From contig NZ_CP032418.1 of the NCBI RefSeq assembly GCF_003595195.1, positions 446,501 through 510,500 on the forward strand: a stretch of DNA of 64,000 nt. The letters are read 5' to 3'. The position numbers were made by a program, and so were the translations under genes. This stretch comes from Paenisporosarcina cavernae (GTDB lineage Bacteria; Bacillota; Bacilli; Bacillales_A; Planococcaceae). Positions 17,508 through 64,000 of this stretch are shown here, one piece after another. The notes beneath the pieces were generated by a model that had not been told where the DNA came from, ran no database searches, and worked only from the letters and a program-made list of their open reading frames with translations. Position 1 is the stretch's first letter. Each line of letters begins with the position of its first letter.

Positions 17508-18596
17508 CTAAACGCTTCTTTTATTCACATAGTGCACGACCCGGTTACGTCCAAGGTGTTTCGCTTCGAGTAGCGCGCAATCGGCACATTGATAAAGTTC
17601 TTGAATCGAGTTGCCATTGTCAGGATAGGTAGAGACACCAATGGAAACGGTGATGTTGATATCTCGTTCGTTTTCGATGTGATACGGTGATCTAGCTATT
17701 CGAGAACGAACCTTCTCTGCTACATCCAGTCCGACAGAACCTGGTGCATCGGGTAGGAAAACAACGAGTTCTTCCCCACCATTTCGTGCAATAATTCCGT
17801 CATAGCGATTAATAAGCGGCTGGATTCGATTTGCTAGTTCTTTTAAAATTTCATCCCCTGCGGAATGTCCGTACGCATCATTGACACGTTTGAAGTGGTC
17901 GATGTCGATCGTCAAAAGAGAGAACGTATCATGCAATTCTTTCGATTGTTCAATGAGCTGGGAAAATTTCCGGTTATTATATAATCCAGTTAAATAATCT
18001 GTCTCCGAAAGTTTTTCAAACTCTCGCATTTTCGTGAAATGATTTTGAAGTTCATCAAGCACTGCAAGGAGAACGAAAAAAGAAATGACACTAAAGATAA
18101 CAAAGTACAGAACATAGACAAATGTCAGCGATAATTCAAGACTCAAGTATGCAATGAGGCCAGCGGTTTGAACGGTGGCATACGCAAAATAATAAGGCGC
18201 ATTTCGAAATGTCATGCGGTATTTCATGCTGACAAAACCAATGACTAACCCCATTGTCATTGCATTGTATCCGGCTAACATCGACACATGAGACATGTCT
18301 TGCATACCCATTCTGGAAATCCCAATAATAATGCCACTGACGATCGGAGCAATTGGACCACCAAGAATGCCGCTAATTACAATCATGACATGGCGCGAAT
18401 CGACAAACATGGAGTCTGAAATTCGTACGCCTGTTTGCATTAATATAAGTCCAGTTATGCCGGCTAATATGCCGATCAACACCGGATGGAGTTTAGGGTA
18501 AGGAATGTGGACACGAGATGTTGCTTGAAACGGCCAGTAAGACAATACGGCAAATGTGAATAGTATGCTAAAGTTAATGAGTAAGTCGAGTAACAT
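17508..18596 (-). CDS. Membrane diguanylate cyclase (5TM-LYT plus GGDEF)
   Basis: About 362 residues if started at the ATG at 18596, nine bases after CGGAGG. An ATG at 18617 precedes the ribosome site and is unlikely. Five to six membrane segments fill residues 1-180 (5TM-5TMR_LYT type: GITGLILMQTGVRISDSMFV and GGPIAPIVSGIIIG). A GGDEF domain follows: SETDYLTGLYNNRKF, TIDIDHFKRVNDAYGHSAGD, and ARNGGEELVVFLPDA. The signature reads GGEEL, with Leu in place of the usual Phe. The site otherwise looks competent for c-di-GMP synthesis. No RxxD inhibitory site at the usual place. Confidence 0.88.
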   Translation of the reverse strand: MLLDLLINFSILFTFAVLSYWPFQATSRVHIPYPKLHPVLIGILAGITGLILMQTGVRISDSMFVDSRHVMIVISGILGGPIAPIVSGIIIGISRMGMQDMSHVSMLAGYNAMTMGLVIGFVSMKYRMTFRNAPYYFAYATVQTAGLIAYLSLELSLTFVYVLYFVIFSVISFFVLLAVLDELQNHFTKMREFEKLSETDYLTGLYNNRKFSQLIEQSKELHDTFSLLTIDIDHFKRVNDAYGHSAGDEILKELANRIQPLINRYDGIIARNGGEELVVFLPDAPGSVGLDVAEKVRSRIARSPYHIENERDINITVSIGVSTYPDNGNSIQELYQCADCALLEAKHLGRNRVVHYVNKRSV

Positions 18597-55342: not shown

Positions 55343-56578
55343 ATGGAGAAAATTGCAGCGCAAGATCAACAAGTATATGAAGCAATGTTAGCGGAGAAGA
55401 AGCGTCAACAAGGCAATATCGAGTTAATCGCGTCAGAAAACTTTGTGTCAGAAGCAGTAATGGAGGCGCAAGGGTCTGTGTTAACGAACAAATATGCGGA
55501 GGGGTATCCTGGCAAGCGTTATTACGGCGGCTGTGAGTATGTGGATGTTGTGGAAAATATCGCGCGCGATCGTTTGAAAGAGTTATTTGGTGCGGAGCAT
55601 GCGAATGTGCAGCCTCATTCAGGTTCTCAAGCGAACATGGCGGTGTACAATACCGTTTTACAGCATGGCGACACGGTTCTTGGGATGAATCTTTCTCACG
55701 GTGGTCACTTAACGCACGGTTCTCCGGTTAATTTCTCGGGGATTCAGTACACGTTCGTGGAGTACGGAGTAGATAAAGAAACAGAACGCATCGATTATGA
55801 AGATGTTCGTGCGAAAGCACTTGAGCACAAGCCAAAAATGATAGTTGCTGGGGCGAGTGCATATGCACGAGAAATCGATTTTGCGAAATTCCGTGAAATT
55901 GCAGACGAAGTTGGCGCATATTTGATGGTCGACATGGCACATATCGCTGGACTTGTTGCGACTGGTGCACATCCAAACCCAGTGCCGCACGCACATTTCG
56001 TGACGTCTACAACACATAAAACACTTCGTGGTCCTCGCGGAGGCTTAATTTTAACAACGGAAGAATTCGCGAAGAAAATCGATAAAACCATTTTCCCGGG
56101 AATTCAAGGTGGCCCGTTAATGCACGTCATCGCAGCAAAAGCAGTGGCATTTGGCGAAGCGCTTCAACCTGCATTTAAAGAATACATCGACCAAGTCGTG
56201 AAAAATGCGAAAGTCTTAGCTGACAGCCTGATTGCAGAGGGTATCGACATTGTCTCAGGCGGTACGGACAACCATTTAGTGCTAGTGAACCTACGCTCAT
56301 TAGGCTTGACTGGTAAAGTGGCAGAGCACGTACTAGATGAGGTAGGGATTACGGCGAATAAAAACACCATTCCTTTCGATCAAGAAAGCCCATTTGTAAC
56401 AAGCGGGATCCGACTGGGGACACCAGCGGTCACAAGTCGAGGATTTAAAGAAGAGGAAATGAAAGAAATCGCGTCGATTATGGCTTTGTTATTAAAAAAT
56501 CCAGAAGATGATGCAACGAAAAAAGAAGCGGCAGAACGAGTGAAAGCGTTAACGGATCGTTTCCCATTGTACGAATAA
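55343..56578 (+). CDS. glyA: Serine hydroxymethyltransferase
   Basis: 411 residues. PLP enzyme linking serine, glycine and one-carbon folate pools. [39 protein letters not shown], and the PLP lysine in [19 protein letters not shown] are present. AAAGGGGAATTTTTCAC precedes the ATG. Confidence 0.97.
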
Positions 56579-56596: not shown

Positions 56597-56628
56597 GCTA
56601 TCTTCTAACATTGAAGATAGCTTTTTTT
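56597..56628 (+). terminator. Terminator of glyA
   Basis: GCTATCTTC (56597-56605) and GAAGATAGC (56613-56621), seven-base loop, seven T. Confidence 0.92.
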
Positions 56629-56683
56629 GGGTAATTCTACTAGTATAGTAAGAAAGCAGTTCACTGAAAGAGGTGTCTGACAC

Positions 56684-58903
56684 GTGAAGTCGAATATCTC
56701 CAAAGAAATACAAAAGGAATTGCTCTTCACGTGGTTAAAACGATTAGGAGAGCAATATGAAACAAGTTTCGTCGTGACTGACCCTGCTTTACCAGACAAT
56801 CCACTCGTATTTGTCAATGACGCATTTATACGATTATCCGGTTATCGTCAGGAAGAACTTCTCGGCAGGAATTGTCGATTTCTTCAAGGGAAAGAAACGA
56901 AAAAAGAAACCATTCTTACGATTCAAGAGCTCCTGAAAGATGAAATTTCGGTCCATACAGAAATTCTGAACTATCGAAAAGATGGCATGCCTTTTTGGAA
57001 CGAATTAGTCATTCAGCCGCTTCGAGATGATTTTGGACGTTTACTGTTTTATGTAGGCTTGCAATTAGACGTGACGCATCGTAAGCAAACCGAAAGCTTA
57101 TTTCTAGTGCAGCAAGAGATGTACGAAGGAATTGAACGGGGCTATACGATCGCGAGTTTACTTCAGCGTGTCTGCAATGAAGCAGAAACGTTTTTTCAAC
57201 ATGGCACGATGTGTTCTATCCTGTCGTTAGATGAACAAGAACGAGTACATGTAGTGGCTGCCAAGTCTCTACCCACTGCATATAATCTCGCGTTGGAAAA
57301 CCAAAAGATAGGTCCTAAAACTGGCTCATGTGGTACAGCGATGTATCGGAAAGAAGCTGTTATCGTAGACGATATCGAACAAGATCCATTGTGGGAAGAT
57401 TACCGTGAACTCGCAAGGGCAAATGGATTACGGGCATGCTGGAGTACGCCGATTATTACGGGTGAAGGGAAAGTGCTTGGTTCATTTGCGACGTATTTTC
57501 CAATGACGGCTAAACCGAGAGAAGTGGATATCGACTTCATTAATCGGCTCGTCCCGCTCATTTCACTGGCGATTCTTTATTCACAAAACAAAGAAGAGAC
57601 GTTACGTCTCGCTTACATAGACCCTACTACTGAGTTGCCAAATCATCATTTTTTTGTGAATGAATTGCAAGATCTCATGAACGAAAAAGAAGAAGGTTTT
57701 CTAGCGATCATTGAACCGGCGGAATTTGCCCATATTGTCGATGTATTTGGTCGCGATGCCGGGGATGAGCTGATGAAACAACTAGCGCTCCGCGTACAAC
57801 GAAAATGTCGACGAGCGGATGATTTCCTCGCTAGATTTACGAATACATCGCTTATTCTTGCGGGATTGAACGATTTTGACGAAATTGAAGCCTATATATC
57901 ACTTGTGTTCCAAACCACTCAAGATCCTTTTATGGTTGCGGATAGTGAAGTGTTTATTACGCTCAAAATAGGGGTCACGCCATTCAAAGGAAATGCGCTA
58001 GTAAAAGAAGAAATTATTCGATTAGCCGACATGGCATTATCCGACTCCAAGAAAAAATCAGGCAATTCCTTAAGCTTTTTTGCATTGGAACAAGATAGTG
58101 GAACGAAACGAGAAATGCTGCTAACAACGCTTCTTTCGCAAGCAATTTTACGAAATGAATTAGATGTTCATTTCCAACCGAAAGTATGGTTAGAAACCGG
58201 TGAAATATATGGATTTGAAGCGCTTTGTCGATGGAAATCGGTAGAATTAGGAGATGTTTCACCTGCGACATTCATTCCATTAGCCGAAGCGACTGGGAAG
58301 ATACGATCGTTAGAGTTGCATGTATTGGACAAAGTAATCGCGTGGTTAAAGAAACGACAAGATAATCATCAAAAATTGTATCAAGTCGCCATTAATATAT
58401 CGACAGACCATTTTTATCATCCACAATTTTTATCGGATATTATGCAGAGAATGACGGAATGTGCTATTGACCCAAAATGGATTCGCATCGAAATTACCGA
58501 AAGTATTGGAATGGTCGATTTTGACCATGCGATTCAATTGATTTCTGAGCTTCGGAAAGCTGGTTTTGAAACATCCATCGACGATTTTGGAATGGGATAT
58601 TCAAGCCTAAGCTACTTACAGCAATTCCAAGTAGACGAACTGAAAATTGATCGAAGCTTTGTATTAGATAGTGCGAATGCTGGAACACTAGCCATTATAC
58701 GTACCATCGTCCAACTAGCAGAAAATCTTCAGCTACAATCCATAGCAGAAGGCATTGAAACGGAAGAACAGTTGCAGACGTTACGGTCGATCAATTGCAA
58801 GCATGGACAAGGTTTTTATTTTTATAAACCAATGCCACTGTCAGAAATAGATGCTTTAGTAAACAAGGGACAACAGATGAACTCGCAACTTTCAATAGAT
58901 TGA
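56684..58903 (+). CDS. Blue-light (LOV) sensor with GAF, degenerate GGDEF and EAL domains: predicted c-di-GMP phosphodiesterase
   Basis: 739 residues from a GTG. Residues 20-140 form a LOV domain: VTDPALPDNPLVFVNDAF and the flavin-cysteinyl motif GRNCRFLQGKET (Cys64), then NYRKDGMPFWNELVIQPLRD. Residues about 150-300 are GAF (GTAMYRKEAVIVDDIEQDPL). The GGDEF domain at about 300-465 has lost its signature (RFTNTSLIL where GGDEF should be). The EAL domain (about 485-730) keeps its catalytic residues: YGFEALCRW, VAINIS, IEITES, SIDDFGMGYSSLSYL, DELKIDRSF, AEGIE and GQGFYFYKP. So it should cut c-di-GMP, possibly under light control. The gene separates glyA and upp, which are adjacent in B. subtilis. 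Confidence 0.9.
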   Translation: MKSNISKEIQKELLFTWLKRLGEQYETSFVVTDPALPDNPLVFVNDAFIRLSGYRQEELLGRNCRFLQGKETKKETILTIQELLKDEISVHTEILNYRKDGMPFWNELVIQPLRDDFGRLLFYVGLQLDVTHRKQTESLFLVQQEMYEGIERGYTIASLLQRVCNEAETFFQHGTMCSILSLDEQERVHVVAAKSLPTAYNLALENQKIGPKTGSCGTAMYRKEAVIVDDIEQDPLWEDYRELARANGLRACWSTPIITGEGKVLGSFATYFPMTAKPREVDIDFINRLVPLISLAILYSQNKEETLRLAYIDPTTELPNHHFFVNELQDLMNEKEEGFLAIIEPAEFAHIVDVFGRDAGDELMKQLALRVQRKCRRADDFLARFTNTSLILAGLNDFDEIEAYISLVFQTTQDPFMVADSEVFITLKIGVTPFKGNALVKEEIIRLADMALSDSKKKSGNSLSFFALEQDSGTKREMLLTTLLSQAILRNELDVHFQPKVWLETGEIYGFEALCRWKSVELGDVSPATFIPLAEATGKIRSLELHVLDKVIAWLKKRQDNHQKLYQVAINISTDHFYHPQFLSDIMQRMTECAIDPKWIRIEITESIGMVDFDHAIQLISELRKAGFETSIDDFGMGYSSLSYLQQFQVDELKIDRSFVLDSANAGTLAIIRTIVQLAENLQLQSIAEGIETEEQLQTLRSINCKHGQGFYFYKPMPLSEIDALVNKGQQMNSQLSID

Positions 58904-59076: not shown

Positions 59077-59706
59077 ATGGGAAAAGTATACGTTTTTGAT
59101 CATCCATTGATCCAGCATAAGTTAACATATATTCGTGACGTGAAAACAGGTACGAAGGAATTTCGTGAGCTTGTGGACGAAGTCGCAACATTAATGGCAT
59201 TTGAAATCACTCGCGACATGCCACTCGAAGATGTAAAAGTGGAAACGCCAGTAACAACTGCAAATGCAAAAATGCTCGCAGGGAAAAAACTTGGAATCGT
59301 TCCCATTTTACGTGCAGGAATTGGGATGGTAGATGGAATATTAAAGCTTATTCCAGCTGCAAAAGTTGGCCATATTGGATTATATCGGGATCCTGAAACG
59401 CTCCAGCCCGTCGAATACTATGTCAAGCTTCCTGCGGATGTGGAAGAACGTGACTTTATCGTCGTCGATCCAATGCTTGCAACAGGTGGATCAGCAGTAG
59501 AGGCAATTAATTCACTTAAAAAGCGTGGCGGTAAAAACATTAAATTTATGTGCTTAATCGCAGCTCCTGAAGGTGTAGACGCTTTACAAGCTGCGCATCC
59601 GGATGTGGATATATATATTGCAGCGCTAGACGAAAAGTTAAATGATCACGGCTATATCGTGCCAGGACTTGGTGATGCAGGCGACCGATTATTCGGGACA
59701 AAATAA
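59077..59706 (+). CDS. upp: Uracil phosphoribosyltransferase
   Basis: 209 residues. PRPP-binding segment [39 protein letters not shown], and C-terminal [18 protein letters not shown] are typical. Salvages uracil to UMP. AAAAGGAGAGATTCGA precedes the ATG. Confidence 0.97.
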
Positions 59707-60908: not shown

Positions 60909-61207
60909 ATGGACGATTTTTCGATCTTTACGTTATTCGCCAAGGAGTAGGGGAATACAAAGAGGTAAGATATGCCATTTAATTAGCAAAATAGGCTGTT
61001 AAGTCAAAAAAATACCATTTAATTTATCGTCATTTGTCGTTCGATGTCGAATATTAGCTTTGTAATGAATTGAAATACCTAATATTAGAAGGGGTTTTCA
61101 TAAAAATGTTAAATTTTATTGAAAAATGAATCGAATGACTCATTCAATTTATAGTACTTATTATATAATTCATTCAACAACATTCGACAGGAAAGGAGGA
61201 AAAATTG
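60909..61207 (+). promoter_or_regulatory. AT-rich upstream region of the response-regulator/HEAT/glycosyltransferase operon with a perfect palindrome
   Basis: No gene in about 300 bases. GAATGA-C-TCATTC (61133-61145) is a perfect 13-base palindrome flanked by further ATTCAT/ATTCAA repeats (61141-61146, 61168-61177). A TATAAT lies at 61163-61168. Half-site resembles that of the fadF operator at 24971. A DNA-binding regulator acting here is likely but unnamed. Confidence 0.5.
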
Positions 61208-62038
61208 ATGGAAACGACAATCTGGAATACGAGAGGTGCAGAGCAGTTATTTAACGTTCTACAAGGCACGCTCGTTCGACTAAGGATGCCTATCACGTTA
61301 GCGCGGTTAGTGATGAAGAAAGATGGACAGTCAAAGGAAGCTTTCTTGAAGTTAAACGAAACATTGCGACAAGAAGATATTTTATTTCGAGAGGAAAATG
61401 AGTCAGATGGATGGTTGCTTATGCCGAGCAGTGGGGAACGTGAACTTGCTGGATTATGCGATCGTTTCAAGAAAATGATGAGTCACACAGAATCGGTCTT
61501 TCAACGGTGTGTATTTTTAGAAGTTCACAATGGGGCATTCGAACTTCGACCGTTATTAGAAGAATTACGAAAAGTAGATATTGAAACCGAAATGGCACCT
61601 AATTTTTTACAACGGATAGATGGCCCTTGGTCGGAATTTACTAAGCAGATAGTGAAAGTGAGCATCATTGAAGACGACGAGTTGATTCGAGAAGTAATCA
61701 GTCGATCTTTGAGCTCGATGGAAGTTCCACGATTTGAAATGGTCATCCAAGAGTTTTCGGACGGACTATCATTTGAACAATCAGATTGGCACTTATCTGC
61801 CGATCCCCATATTGTCATCTTGGATGATGTTCTGCCGAAAAAGAATGAAATTGAAATTGTTCATTATTTACGAAACCGCCCGAACAACCGGAAATTTCAT
61901 CTCTATTTACTAACGAGCCGTGGATCAGAAGAACATACGGTAAATGCATATCGCCTTGGCGTAGATGAAGTAATCCAAAAACCGTTCAACTTACGTCTTT
62001 TTGAAGCGCTTCTTTCACGTACAATCGAAAGGTTGTGA
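61208..62038 (+). CDS. Response regulator with C-terminal receiver and novel N-terminal domain
   Basis: 276 residues from the ATG at 61208 (AAGGAGGAAAAATTG upstream; the TTG at 61205 is also possible). Residues 150-276 are a receiver domain: acidic pair in VSIIEDDELIREVI, phospho-Asp in HIVILDDVLPKKNE, Thr in LYLLTSRGSEEH, Lys in EVIQKPFNLRL. Residues 1-145 have the strand/helix rhythm of a degenerate GGDEF domain (LRQEDILFREENESDGWLLM) but no signature; this is inference. Order (output first, receiver last) is unusual. The stop overlaps the next gene. Confidence 0.8.
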   Translation: METTIWNTRGAEQLFNVLQGTLVRLRMPITLARLVMKKDGQSKEAFLKLNETLRQEDILFREENESDGWLLMPSSGERELAGLCDRFKKMMSHTESVFQRCVFLEVHNGAFELRPLLEELRKVDIETEMAPNFLQRIDGPWSEFTKQIVKVSIIEDDELIREVISRSLSSMEVPRFEMVIQEFSDGLSFEQSDWHLSADPHIVILDDVLPKKNEIEIVHYLRNRPNNRKFHLYLLTSRGSEEHTVNAYRLGVDEVIQKPFNLRLFEALLSRTIERL

Positions 62039-63093
62039 GAATAATGTGGCTATCAAGTACATTGCTCGTGAATTTTATTATCGTCCTTCTCGTATTACTT
62101 GGGATTTTTAGTTTTTATTTAACAATCCTAAGTATGCTTCAAACTCAATCACGTAAAAAACAACTAGCATACATGGACCGATCAAAATGGAAATGGATGG
62201 ACTACTTGTATCATGATGGAGACTTTGAAGAAGCAATGATTCCTACTACCCGAGATGAAATGAAAGCTGCTGAAAAGTTACTGGTTAGTTTTTTGAATGC
62301 AGTATACGTAGAAGGAACGCAATATAAAATACGGAAATTTGCGAATCAATATATGACGACTTACTATCGACGCATGTTAACGAGCCCTGAGTGGAGTATT
62401 CGGATGAATGCGCTCTATAGGGTTTTAGACTTTTATTTAATCGATTTAGCAGAAGAATATATGACATTTTACAAAAAGAAAAAAGTTCGTAATCGAGAAG
62501 AAAGCTATTATTTCACGTTAGTACAGTTAATGATTGGTAAAGTCCAGCCCTATCAATTTTTATTAGACGATTCTCGTCATTATACAGAACAACAAATCCG
62601 TGCAATCGTGAAGAAATTGTCTGACCGTCAGCTAAAAGACTTGTCCAAACACTATGATTATTTAAATCAACAGACAAAGTTAGCATTTTTTGATGTGTTA
62701 GCAGAAACCTATCGTGTTGATTATGAACCTTTTATGGTAGAAAAGTTAGAAACGGAAAAAGATTTTGAAGTCCATTTACGAATTTTAAAGTCCTTTCAAA
62801 CAATGGGATATGCAAGTTCGTTTGAACCGTTTTTACCATATCTCGCATCTAGTTCCTGGGAGGAACGAATGGTTGCTGCAAAAATTGTTGGTTCATTCCC
62901 GGTAGCCTCCACATCATCTTACTTGTTGCCTCTTTTAGAGGATGACAATTGGTGGGTACGCTCTGTCGTGGCTTCCACTTTAGCAACACATAAAAATGGA
63001 TCGTCAGTCTTAAACGATTTTGCACATCAGACAAAAGATCGCTATGCTGCTGAAATGATTTCTGAACAATTATGGAAGAAGGCGATGGCATGA
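62035..63093 (+). CDS. HEAT-repeat protein with N-terminal membrane anchor
   Basis: 352 residues from a GTG overlapping the previous stop; ATG at 62044 is an alternative with better spacing. One hydrophobic helix (about 8-32), then a fully helical body. The last 120 residues contain HEAT-type repeats (ASSSWEERMVAAKIVGSFPV, LEDDNWWVRSVVASTLATH). Likely a membrane-tethered scaffold for the glycosyltransferase it is coupled to (overlap of four bases). Confidence 0.78.
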   Translation: MRIMWLSSTLLVNFIIVLLVLLGIFSFYLTILSMLQTQSRKKQLAYMDRSKWKWMDYLYHDGDFEEAMIPTTRDEMKAAEKLLVSFLNAVYVEGTQYKIRKFANQYMTTYYRRMLTSPEWSIRMNALYRVLDFYLIDLAEEYMTFYKKKKVRNREESYYFTLVQLMIGKVQPYQFLLDDSRHYTEQQIRAIVKKLSDRQLKDLSKHYDYLNQQTKLAFFDVLAETYRVDYEPFMVEKLETEKDFEVHLRILKSFQTMGYASSFEPFLPYLASSSWEERMVAAKIVGSFPVASTSSYLLPLLEDDNWWVRSVVASTLATHKNGSSVLNDFAHQTKDRYAAEMISEQLWKKAMA

Positions 63094-64000
63094 ATACCAT
63101 TTGGGATGCCTTGTTATTGTTTTTTGGGAAATTTTTAATCTTCTACATGTTAATTGTCATTGGAATTTATACCTTAATGCTTTTATTATCATTCATGAAA
63201 TTGCGAAAAGAGTATCGACTGGACAAAGAGGAATTAGATGACGACTTTTTAAGTAGCTTTTATTCGAAGCCGGTATCTGTACTTGTTCCAGCATTTAACG
63301 AAGAGAAAGGTGTAGTTGATAGCGTTCGTTCCTTATTGAGTTTGAGGTATCCGCAATTCGAGGTCATTGTCATCAATGATGGTTCGACTGACAATACGAT
63401 GGAGGTGCTCATCGAACAATTTCAACTCGTTCCTATCAATAAAGTCGTACGAAAACAACTCCCGAATGAACAGATTCACGCGGTGTATCAATCGAAAATC
63501 CATCAGAATTTATGGTTACTAGATAAAGCAAATGGGGGAAAAGCCGATGCATTAAATGCAGGGATAAATATGTCGAAGTATCCTTACATTTGTTCGATTG
63601 ACGGGGATTCCATTTTAGAAGAACGATCACTCCTTCGTATTATGAAACCGATTGTCTATTCGGACGGGGATGTAATTGCGGCTGGAGGAAACGTTCGCAT
63701 TGCGAATGGAATTTTTGTGGAACATGGCACAATGTCAGAAGTTGTGCTTTCCAATTCGTTATTAGTCGTCATGCAAGCAGTCGAATACTTACGCGCTTTC
63801 CTGATGGGAAGAATTGCACTAAGTAAATACAATTTAGTACTCATCATCTCAGGAGCGTTCTCCGTTTTTTCGAAAGAATGGGTCATTAAAGCGGGAGGAT
63901 ACTCTAAAAATACAATTGGTGAGGACATGGAATTGGTCGTTCGATTACACCGAGTTCTCGCAGAAGCAAAAGAGAAGAAACGAATTGAATTTGTGCCAGA
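63090..64000 (+). CDS. Family 2 glycosyltransferase, membrane-bound (runs off the right edge)
   Basis: About 303 residues visible from the ATG at 63090. A membrane helix (about 13-37), then GT2 catalytic core: VSVLVPAFNEEKGVVDSVRS, VIVINDGSTDNTMEVL, DKANGGKADALNAGI, DxD as CSIDGDSILEE, and ENTIGEDMELV-type motif (NTIGEDMELVVRLHR). Layout resembles processive polysaccharide synthases (PgaC/BcsA/HasA type). The remaining TM domain is outside the window. Coupled by ATGA to the HEAT gene. Confidence 0.88.
   Translation, partial: MNTIWDALLLFFGKFLIFYMLIVIGIYTLMLLLSFMKLRKEYRLDKEELDDDFLSSFYSKPVSVLVPAFNEEKGVVDSVRSLLSLRYPQFEVIVINDGSTDNTMEVLIEQFQLVPINKVVRKQLPNEQIHAVYQSKIHQNLWLLDKANGGKADALNAGINMSKYPYICSIDGDSILEERSLLRIMKPIVYSDGDVIAAGGNVRIANGIFVEHGTMSEVVLSNSLLVVMQAVEYLRAFLMGRIALSKYNLVLIISGAFSVFSKEWVIKAGGYSKNTIGEDMELVVRLHRVLAEAKEKKRIEFVP

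Follow-up and report, generated by a model that had tools for sequence, protein, structure and literature searches.

The gene considered here lies between glyA and upp in Paenisporosarcina cavernae, in a window of 64,000 nucleotides (the whole stretch of DNA that was analysed), and encodes a 739-amino-acid protein with LOV, GAF, GGDEF, and EAL domains in this order (Table 1). The Pfam matches of this protein are far beyond chance: PAS_9 at residues 37–131 (E = 5.9e-19), GAF_2 at 156–297 (1e-17), GGDEF at 310–461 (1.4e-18), and EAL at 484–716 (1.3e-65), with a weak score for GGDEF (67.7 bits) and a strong one for EAL (221.6 bits). As a terminator-like hairpin follows glyA, the gene is probably transcribed from a promoter of its own; the region contains eight terminator-like sites of this kind compared to 4.5 expected in shuffles. 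Farther downstream, from 61205 to 64000 of the window and on to 6930 of a fetched stretch (L315), genes were seen for a response regulator (REC 152–265), a HEAT-repeat protein, a family-2 glycosyltransferase, and a 988-amino-acid protein with no Pfam match at 0.001. These genes are located downstream of wecB and before open reading frames (ORFs) resembling ATP synthase subunits, and possibly form an exopolysaccharide cluster.

Table 1. Features of the glyA–upp locus of P. cavernae, in coordinates of the window.
Feature	Position	Strand	Basis
glyA, upstream neighbour	55343..56578	+	NCBIfam NF000586
Terminator-like hairpin 3' of glyA	56597..56621	+	consensus match only
GAGGTG, probable ribosome-binding site, 8 nt 5' of GTG	56670..56675	+	by eye
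LOV–GAF–degenerate GGDEF–EAL protein, 739 aa, GTG start	56684..58903	+	ORF, Pfam domains, AlphaFold2 model
LOV core, residues 26–133	56759..57082	+	Pfam, structure match, alignment
Cys64 codon, predicted flavin-adduct cysteine	56873..56875	+	
LOV-to-GAF linker, helix 131–152	57074..57139	+	DSSP of model
GAF domain, residues 156–297	57149..57574	+	Pfam
GAF-to-GGDEF helix, residues 280–311	57521..57616	+	model
Degenerate GGDEF domain, residues 310–461	57611..58066	+	Pfam
FTNTS replacing GGDEF signature, residues 385–389	57836..57850	+	
GGDEF-to-EAL linker, helix 468–489	58085..58150	+	model
EAL phosphodiesterase domain, residues 484–716, nine catalytic residues present	58133..58831	+	Pfam, alignment
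upp, downstream neighbour	59077..59706	+	NCBIfam TIGR01091

The N-terminal PAS domain was assigned as a LOV domain on the basis of two matches. Residues 22–134 match the phototropin (NPH1-1) LOV structure at 3.9e-33, the best among solved structures, and residues 25–140 match the NCBIfam model YtvA_fam (NF052652) at 142 bits, which is below its curated cut-off of 250. The latter match covers the LOV part only, and STAS is absent among the Pfam matches of the protein. The adduct-type cysteine of the N-C-R-F-L-Q motif is present as Cys64 in GRNCRFLQG, together with Gln68, Asn96, Asn106, Gly125, and Gln127 in the alignment; these five we take to be flavin pocket residues by the roles generally assigned to them in LOV domains. 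In a comparison with 61 other cysteine-bearing LOV domains (six of them from Planococcaceae), each of these six residues was found in at least 59. Position 81, presumably the second FMN-phosphate arginine site, which is common rather than invariant, is Gln in P. cavernae and Arg in 54 of the 61, so flavin affinity could be weak. A preliminary description of the gene had proposed a LOV flavin motif with Cys64, a GAF domain, a GGDEF domain without its signature, and an EAL domain with all catalytic residues; the first two agree with the motif, with most of the flavin pocket, and with the GAF_2 match.

The two output domains likewise correspond to what had been described. The GG(D/E)EF site of diguanylate cyclases was not found in the GGDEF domain, where FTNTS stands at 385–389. 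By alignment, the EAL domain has E512, N571, E603, D633, D634, K654, E689, E692, and Q709, all nine of the residues examined, which we take from general knowledge of EAL domains to be catalytic. Against solved structures, the GGDEF–EAL part matches DosP, the oxygen-sensing phosphodiesterase of E. coli, best (4.1e-69). An AlphaFold2 model built on a 30-sequence alignment (mean pLDDT 87.7, pTM 0.54) has good domains with uncertain packing, and in it helices 131–152, 280–311, and 468–489 (DSSP) connect the four domains. DosP also ranked first in a Foldseek search with the model (731 columns, 25% identity, TM 0.38, rmsd 19.9), a match that, given the TM and rmsd values, says more for the order of the domains than for how they are arranged overall. 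With a pTM of 0.54 and a TM of 0.38 to DosP, the arrangement of the full-length protein in the model is tentative.

DosP thus ranks first among relatives by both sequence and fold, and shares with the P. cavernae protein a PAS sensor, a signature-less GGDEF domain, and an EAL domain. The two differ in their sensors: DosP uses a heme PAS domain for oxygen and is not known to have a GAF domain, whereas the P. cavernae protein has a LOV domain of the flavin type and a GAF domain. They differ also in degree of similarity, as the full-length TM is low and the DosP equivalog (NF008467) was matched at 339 bits, short of its curated cut-off of 857. None of the 25 NCBIfam matches shown for the protein reached an equivalog cut-off.

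The preliminary description had the gene inserted between glyA and upp, and the position is correct but the insertion is not supported. A LOV query matched all 261 genomes of the GTDB family at E ≤ 0.001, but many of these matches were weak and, by identity, ordinary PAS domains, and full-size frames among the matches listed were therefore used to fetch 40 loci of relatives (L070–L109; L-numbers denote fetched loci). In 39 of these, from five genera, the gene is preceded by glyA and followed by upp, with all three on one strand, the exception being L103. Two of 20 further stretches, L241 (from a sixth genus) and L254, have the same flanks. The place is occupied in Planococcus, Sporosarcina, Tetzosporium/Chryseomicrobium, and others. 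On these counts, a recent arrival of the gene at this site, by insertion or horizontal transfer, was rejected. Eleven further full-size relatives (L242–L252; 36–39% identity) have neither flank within the 4.8–7.0 kb fetched; L253, also with neither flank in its fetched stretch, was excluded from trees and counts. In places the gene has decayed, or assemblies contain errors, as the reading frame is broken in one Planococcus (L087, genome G116) and shortened in one Sporosarcina (L254, genome G218). A Sporosarcina-type copy (L176) also occurs in a record under the title Arthrobacter beigongshangensis, a name that is probably wrong.

Within Paenisporosarcina the gene is present in five of nine genomes. 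In three of the gene-less congeners, glyA and upp are separated on that strand by a single ORF of at least 80 amino acids; it is 461 amino acids long and, judged by eye, resembles an amino-acid permease. The fourth genome is 81% complete, and no upp was found in it. At L070, an ORF 95% identical to the permease-like one (over a 459-residue match) lies between glyA and the gene. This order of glyA, permease-like ORF, gene, and upp indicates that the three congeners most likely lost the gene. L071 and L072 gave no match to the permease-like ORF.

Sixty-nine orthologs were compared: 42 with flanks seen, including that of P. cavernae, and 27 taken from short Planococcus loci (L288–L314). Residue 64 is Cys in four, Gly in 46, Leu in 11, Val in four, Ile in two, Tyr in one, and Ala in one. 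The four cysteine owners (the P. cavernae gene, L070, L071, and L072) are all Paenisporosarcina, and they alone have the full set of Cys64, Gln68, Asn96, Asn106, Gly125, and Gln127; small departures in the motif are Asn65 in L071 and Asp63 in L072. The form predicted from these residues to sense light is therefore the exception within the ortholog family. The enzyme is the rule. All nine EAL residues are intact in each of the 66 orthologs long enough to be scored (excluding L087 with its broken frame, L254 with its shortened one, and L314 at a contig end). These residues, together with the higher rank of DosP than of LapD by both structure and sequence, make it very improbable that the protein is a c-di-GMP-binding effector such as LapD or FimX with no enzyme activity, an explanation to which the degenerate GGDEF beside EAL, as in the structural match LapD, would lend itself. 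The GGDEF signature is missing in all 67 orthologs scored (excluding L087 and L314), and its loss is accordingly old.

The pockets of the cysteine-free orthologs differ by genus. In Planococcus, where the 46 Gly64 orthologs are found, Asn96 and Asn106 are present in all 46, Gln127 in 38, and Arg81 in 42, with His68 and Met/Leu125 throughout; to judge by these residues, the pocket looks flavin-competent, and those of the other genera look less so. Gln127 and Gly125 are missing in all 12 Sporosarcina orthologs, and Phe106 is found in all four of Tetzosporium/Chryseomicrobium. The congener L073 has Tyr64 and has also lost Gln68, Asn96, Asn106, and Gln127, a total of five pocket residues. Excluding the pocket sites, L073 has 53–55% LOV identity with L070–L072 (EAL 72–76%, GAF 70–77%), compared to 63–67% among L070–L072 themselves (EAL 76–79%, GAF 77–79%). 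These values suggest that the LOV domain came under weaker constraint with the loss of the cysteine. A more general claim, that the LOV domain is more constrained in cysteine-bearing pairs, was rejected. Among pairs at 58–62% EAL identity, LOV identity is 58.8% in cysteine-bearing (three pairs) versus 37.7% in cysteine-free pairs (105 pairs), but GAF (57.2% versus 33.5%) and GGDEF (52.8% versus 39.6%) contrast too, and only the L073 comparison is specific to the LOV domain.

The P. cavernae genome is a single contig of 2,537,131 bases with 26 GGDEF matches, 12 EAL matches (one weak and partial), and three PilZ matches. Twenty-three of the GGDEF domains keep a G/S-G-D/E-E-F/L signature, which makes synthesis of c-di-GMP probable. 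The window itself encodes another GGDEF protein, with GGEEL in place of GGDEF (G000:C1:464041-464505, window about 17541–18005, minus strand). The preliminary description had also called the host a spore former; here, Spo0A_C was matched in the genome at 152.5 bits, and a SpoIIR-like ORF in the window reaches 85 bits, against a model cut-off of 151.9. The 739-amino-acid protein is the only LOV protein found in the genome, the other two matches being PAS regions of 20–21% identity.

LOV–STAS proteins (E ≤ 1e-33) were found in 75 of the 261 family genomes. Their absence from all nine Paenisporosarcina genomes would fit a complementarity in which the cysteine is kept only where LOV–STAS is missing, as would their presence in 42 of 46 Planococcus, but this was rejected as a general rule, since 12 Sporosarcina owners of the gene have neither. 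In Sporosarcina, LOV–STAS occurs in none of 12 gene owners versus 24 of 56 non-owners (Fisher p = 0.006, kinship ignored). In a separate observation, a protein of about 432 amino acids with a full cysteine-bearing LOV domain is encoded in two family genomes (L255 and L256).

With the cysteine, the main pocket residues, and the EAL catalytic residues present, and the full pocket set confined to the cysteine-bearing members, the 739-amino-acid protein is best read as an SL2-type c-di-GMP phosphodiesterase under blue-light control, in line with the prediction of the preliminary description that blue light controls c-di-GMP degradation. This explanation, including its mechanism and family history, is considered probable from the sequence. 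SL2 of Synechococcus elongatus is described in a passage of PMC8846402 as a LOV–GGDEF–EAL protein and a blue-light-activated phosphodiesterase. Compared with it by architecture, the P. cavernae protein likewise has a cysteine LOV domain, GGDEF, and EAL on one chain, with c-di-GMP hydrolysis predicted to be light-regulated; it differs in the GAF domain added between LOV and GGDEF, in the loss of the GGDEF signature, and in its Bacillota host.

For this protein we infer flavin binding, photochemistry, a dimer, coupling, and a sign of the light effect as follows. The LOV domain would bind flavin, and blue light would lead to a covalent bond between flavin and Cys64. The Gln127 side of the pocket would relay the change to helix 131–152, from which the signal would pass through the GAF domain and helix 280–311, cross the catalytically dead GGDEF domain, acting as dimer and relay as in DosP, and reach, via helix 468–489, the EAL domain predicted to hydrolyse c-di-GMP. 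The GAF domain probably adds a second input. Light most likely activates the enzyme, by analogy with SL2, and would then lower c-di-GMP.

The sign of this effect is not readable from sequence, and a dark-active enzyme inhibited by light is an alternative. LOV outputs can be inverted, as in the inverted YF1 variant mentioned in part of PMC4682037, and an excerpt of PMC12805367 has the activity of LOV–GGDEF proteins set by linker register. This opposite sense is nevertheless unlikely, as blue light acts positively on the phosphodiesterases SL2, BlrP1, and RmcA according to a passage of PMC8846402. A second alternative concerns the input itself. As 65 of 69 orthologs keep the enzyme with a cysteine-free LOV domain, light cannot be the sole input of the ortholog family, and the LOV domain could bind flavin mainly as a redox sensor, with light as a side effect and the flavin redox state or a GAF ligand as the input. 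Cysteine-free LOV domains can signal via flavin reduction (part of PMC4682037), and the Planococcus orthologs with Gly64 retain Asn96, Asn106, and mostly Gln127. For the P. cavernae protein this is equally improbable, as it has retained as a set the photochemical residues that a pure redox sensor does not need.

How four light-sensing candidates came to stand in a largely cysteine-free family depends on its history. In trees of the post-LOV domains, Paenisporosarcina forms one clade (support 100 and 93) in which the P. cavernae gene branches first. L073 lies inside this clade beside the cysteine-bearing L070–L072 (support of 97 and 98 for these three), and its Tyr64 is, given this nested position, most simply explained by recent loss. 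Among genera, the branching order in these trees is weakly supported (49–70). The best-fitting history is most likely an ancestral photoreceptor at glyA–upp, kept in most Paenisporosarcina owning the gene and blinded several times elsewhere. Next in rank comes a domain swap, and then regain of the cysteine.

A swap of the Paenisporosarcina LOV core from a canonical LOV protein, or a regain of the cysteine, is a serious but less probable explanation of the four genes. It would account for cysteine-bearing members amid cysteine-free genera in the trees of the remaining domains, and for a midpoint-rooted LOV-only tree in which Paenisporosarcina groups with canonical LOV domains (support 60) and one Devosia LOV joins at 94. 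Sixteen core sites, including every diagnostic site in 32–91, are canonical-like, such that residues 32–91 hold canonical-like diagnostic sites only. Furthermore, the 12 unlinked relatives compared all lack the cysteine (seven Leu, five Ile), which would count against retention if they are early-branching. Several observations point the other way. First, much of the cap and sites 29, 31, 93, 109, 111, 121, and 122 are ortholog-like, and Trp17, Gly22, Phe29, Glu93, Val109, and Gln111 among the ortholog-like residues flank and enter the core. Second, no donor with more than 54.2% LOV identity was found among the 68 LOV sequences from the matches listed. Third, a regained cysteine alone would not suffice, as Gly125 and, in many lineages, Gln68 and Gln127 would have to be correct too. 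Fourth, the replacing residues differ by genus (G, L/I, V, I, A, Y), as expected from independent losses. Finally, in a sample of 398 genomes of the class, two proteins of another family, L281 (by Pfam) and L282 (by alignment), were found to combine a cysteine-bearing LOV domain with GAF, an intact GGDEF, and EAL. They fit a cysteine-bearing ancestor with both functions, although they could have been assembled independently.

Retention with repeated loss leads to a broader proposal, to which we give an even chance: the glyA–upp phosphodiesterase was blinded repeatedly, such that with the same EAL output its LOV domain is now a photoreceptor in four Paenisporosarcina, a cysteine-free but flavin-competent domain in Planococcus, and a collapsed pocket in Sporosarcina, Tetzosporium/Chryseomicrobium, and one Paenisporosarcina. 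A few substitutions would then have turned light into redox or other inputs, and the P. cavernae gene would be among the last light-sensing forms.

Compared to other LOV proteins, this family has both familiar and new features. YtvA, the LOV–STAS blue-light photoreceptor of Bacilli, shares the LOV motif and pocket, but its output is STAS and that of the P. cavernae protein EAL. Natural cysteine-less LOV proteins such as BAT (part of PMC4682037) resemble the family in the replaced cysteine; here the forms with and without it are orthologous, share their output domain, and occupy one locus where tested. According to an excerpt of PMC4844311, GGDEF or GGDEF plus EAL is found in about 18% of LOV proteins from bacteria, and the architecture class is thus already known. 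In the open-licence papers searched, no description of this glyA–upp LOV locus and none pairing LOV domain, Planococcus, and blue light was found, and the genus name Paenisporosarcina was absent among the matches listed on blue light, c-di-GMP, and LOV. What is new is not the architecture of the individual protein but an ortholog series with one conserved output and a varying sensor.

A passage of PMC4682037 asks whether cysteine-free LOV domains are relics of an earlier redox sensor, photoreceptors that have degenerated, or functional flavin sensors. The ortholog series lets this question be tested directly, as scaffold and assay are the same and the state of the sensor differs, and it offers a natural series for how LOV domains shift between photoreceptor and cysteine-free sensor. 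The series also draws attention to P. cavernae, a member of the Bacillota in which the one LOV protein found is connected to c-di-GMP and the genome, of 2.5 Mb, has 26 GGDEF and 12 EAL matches.
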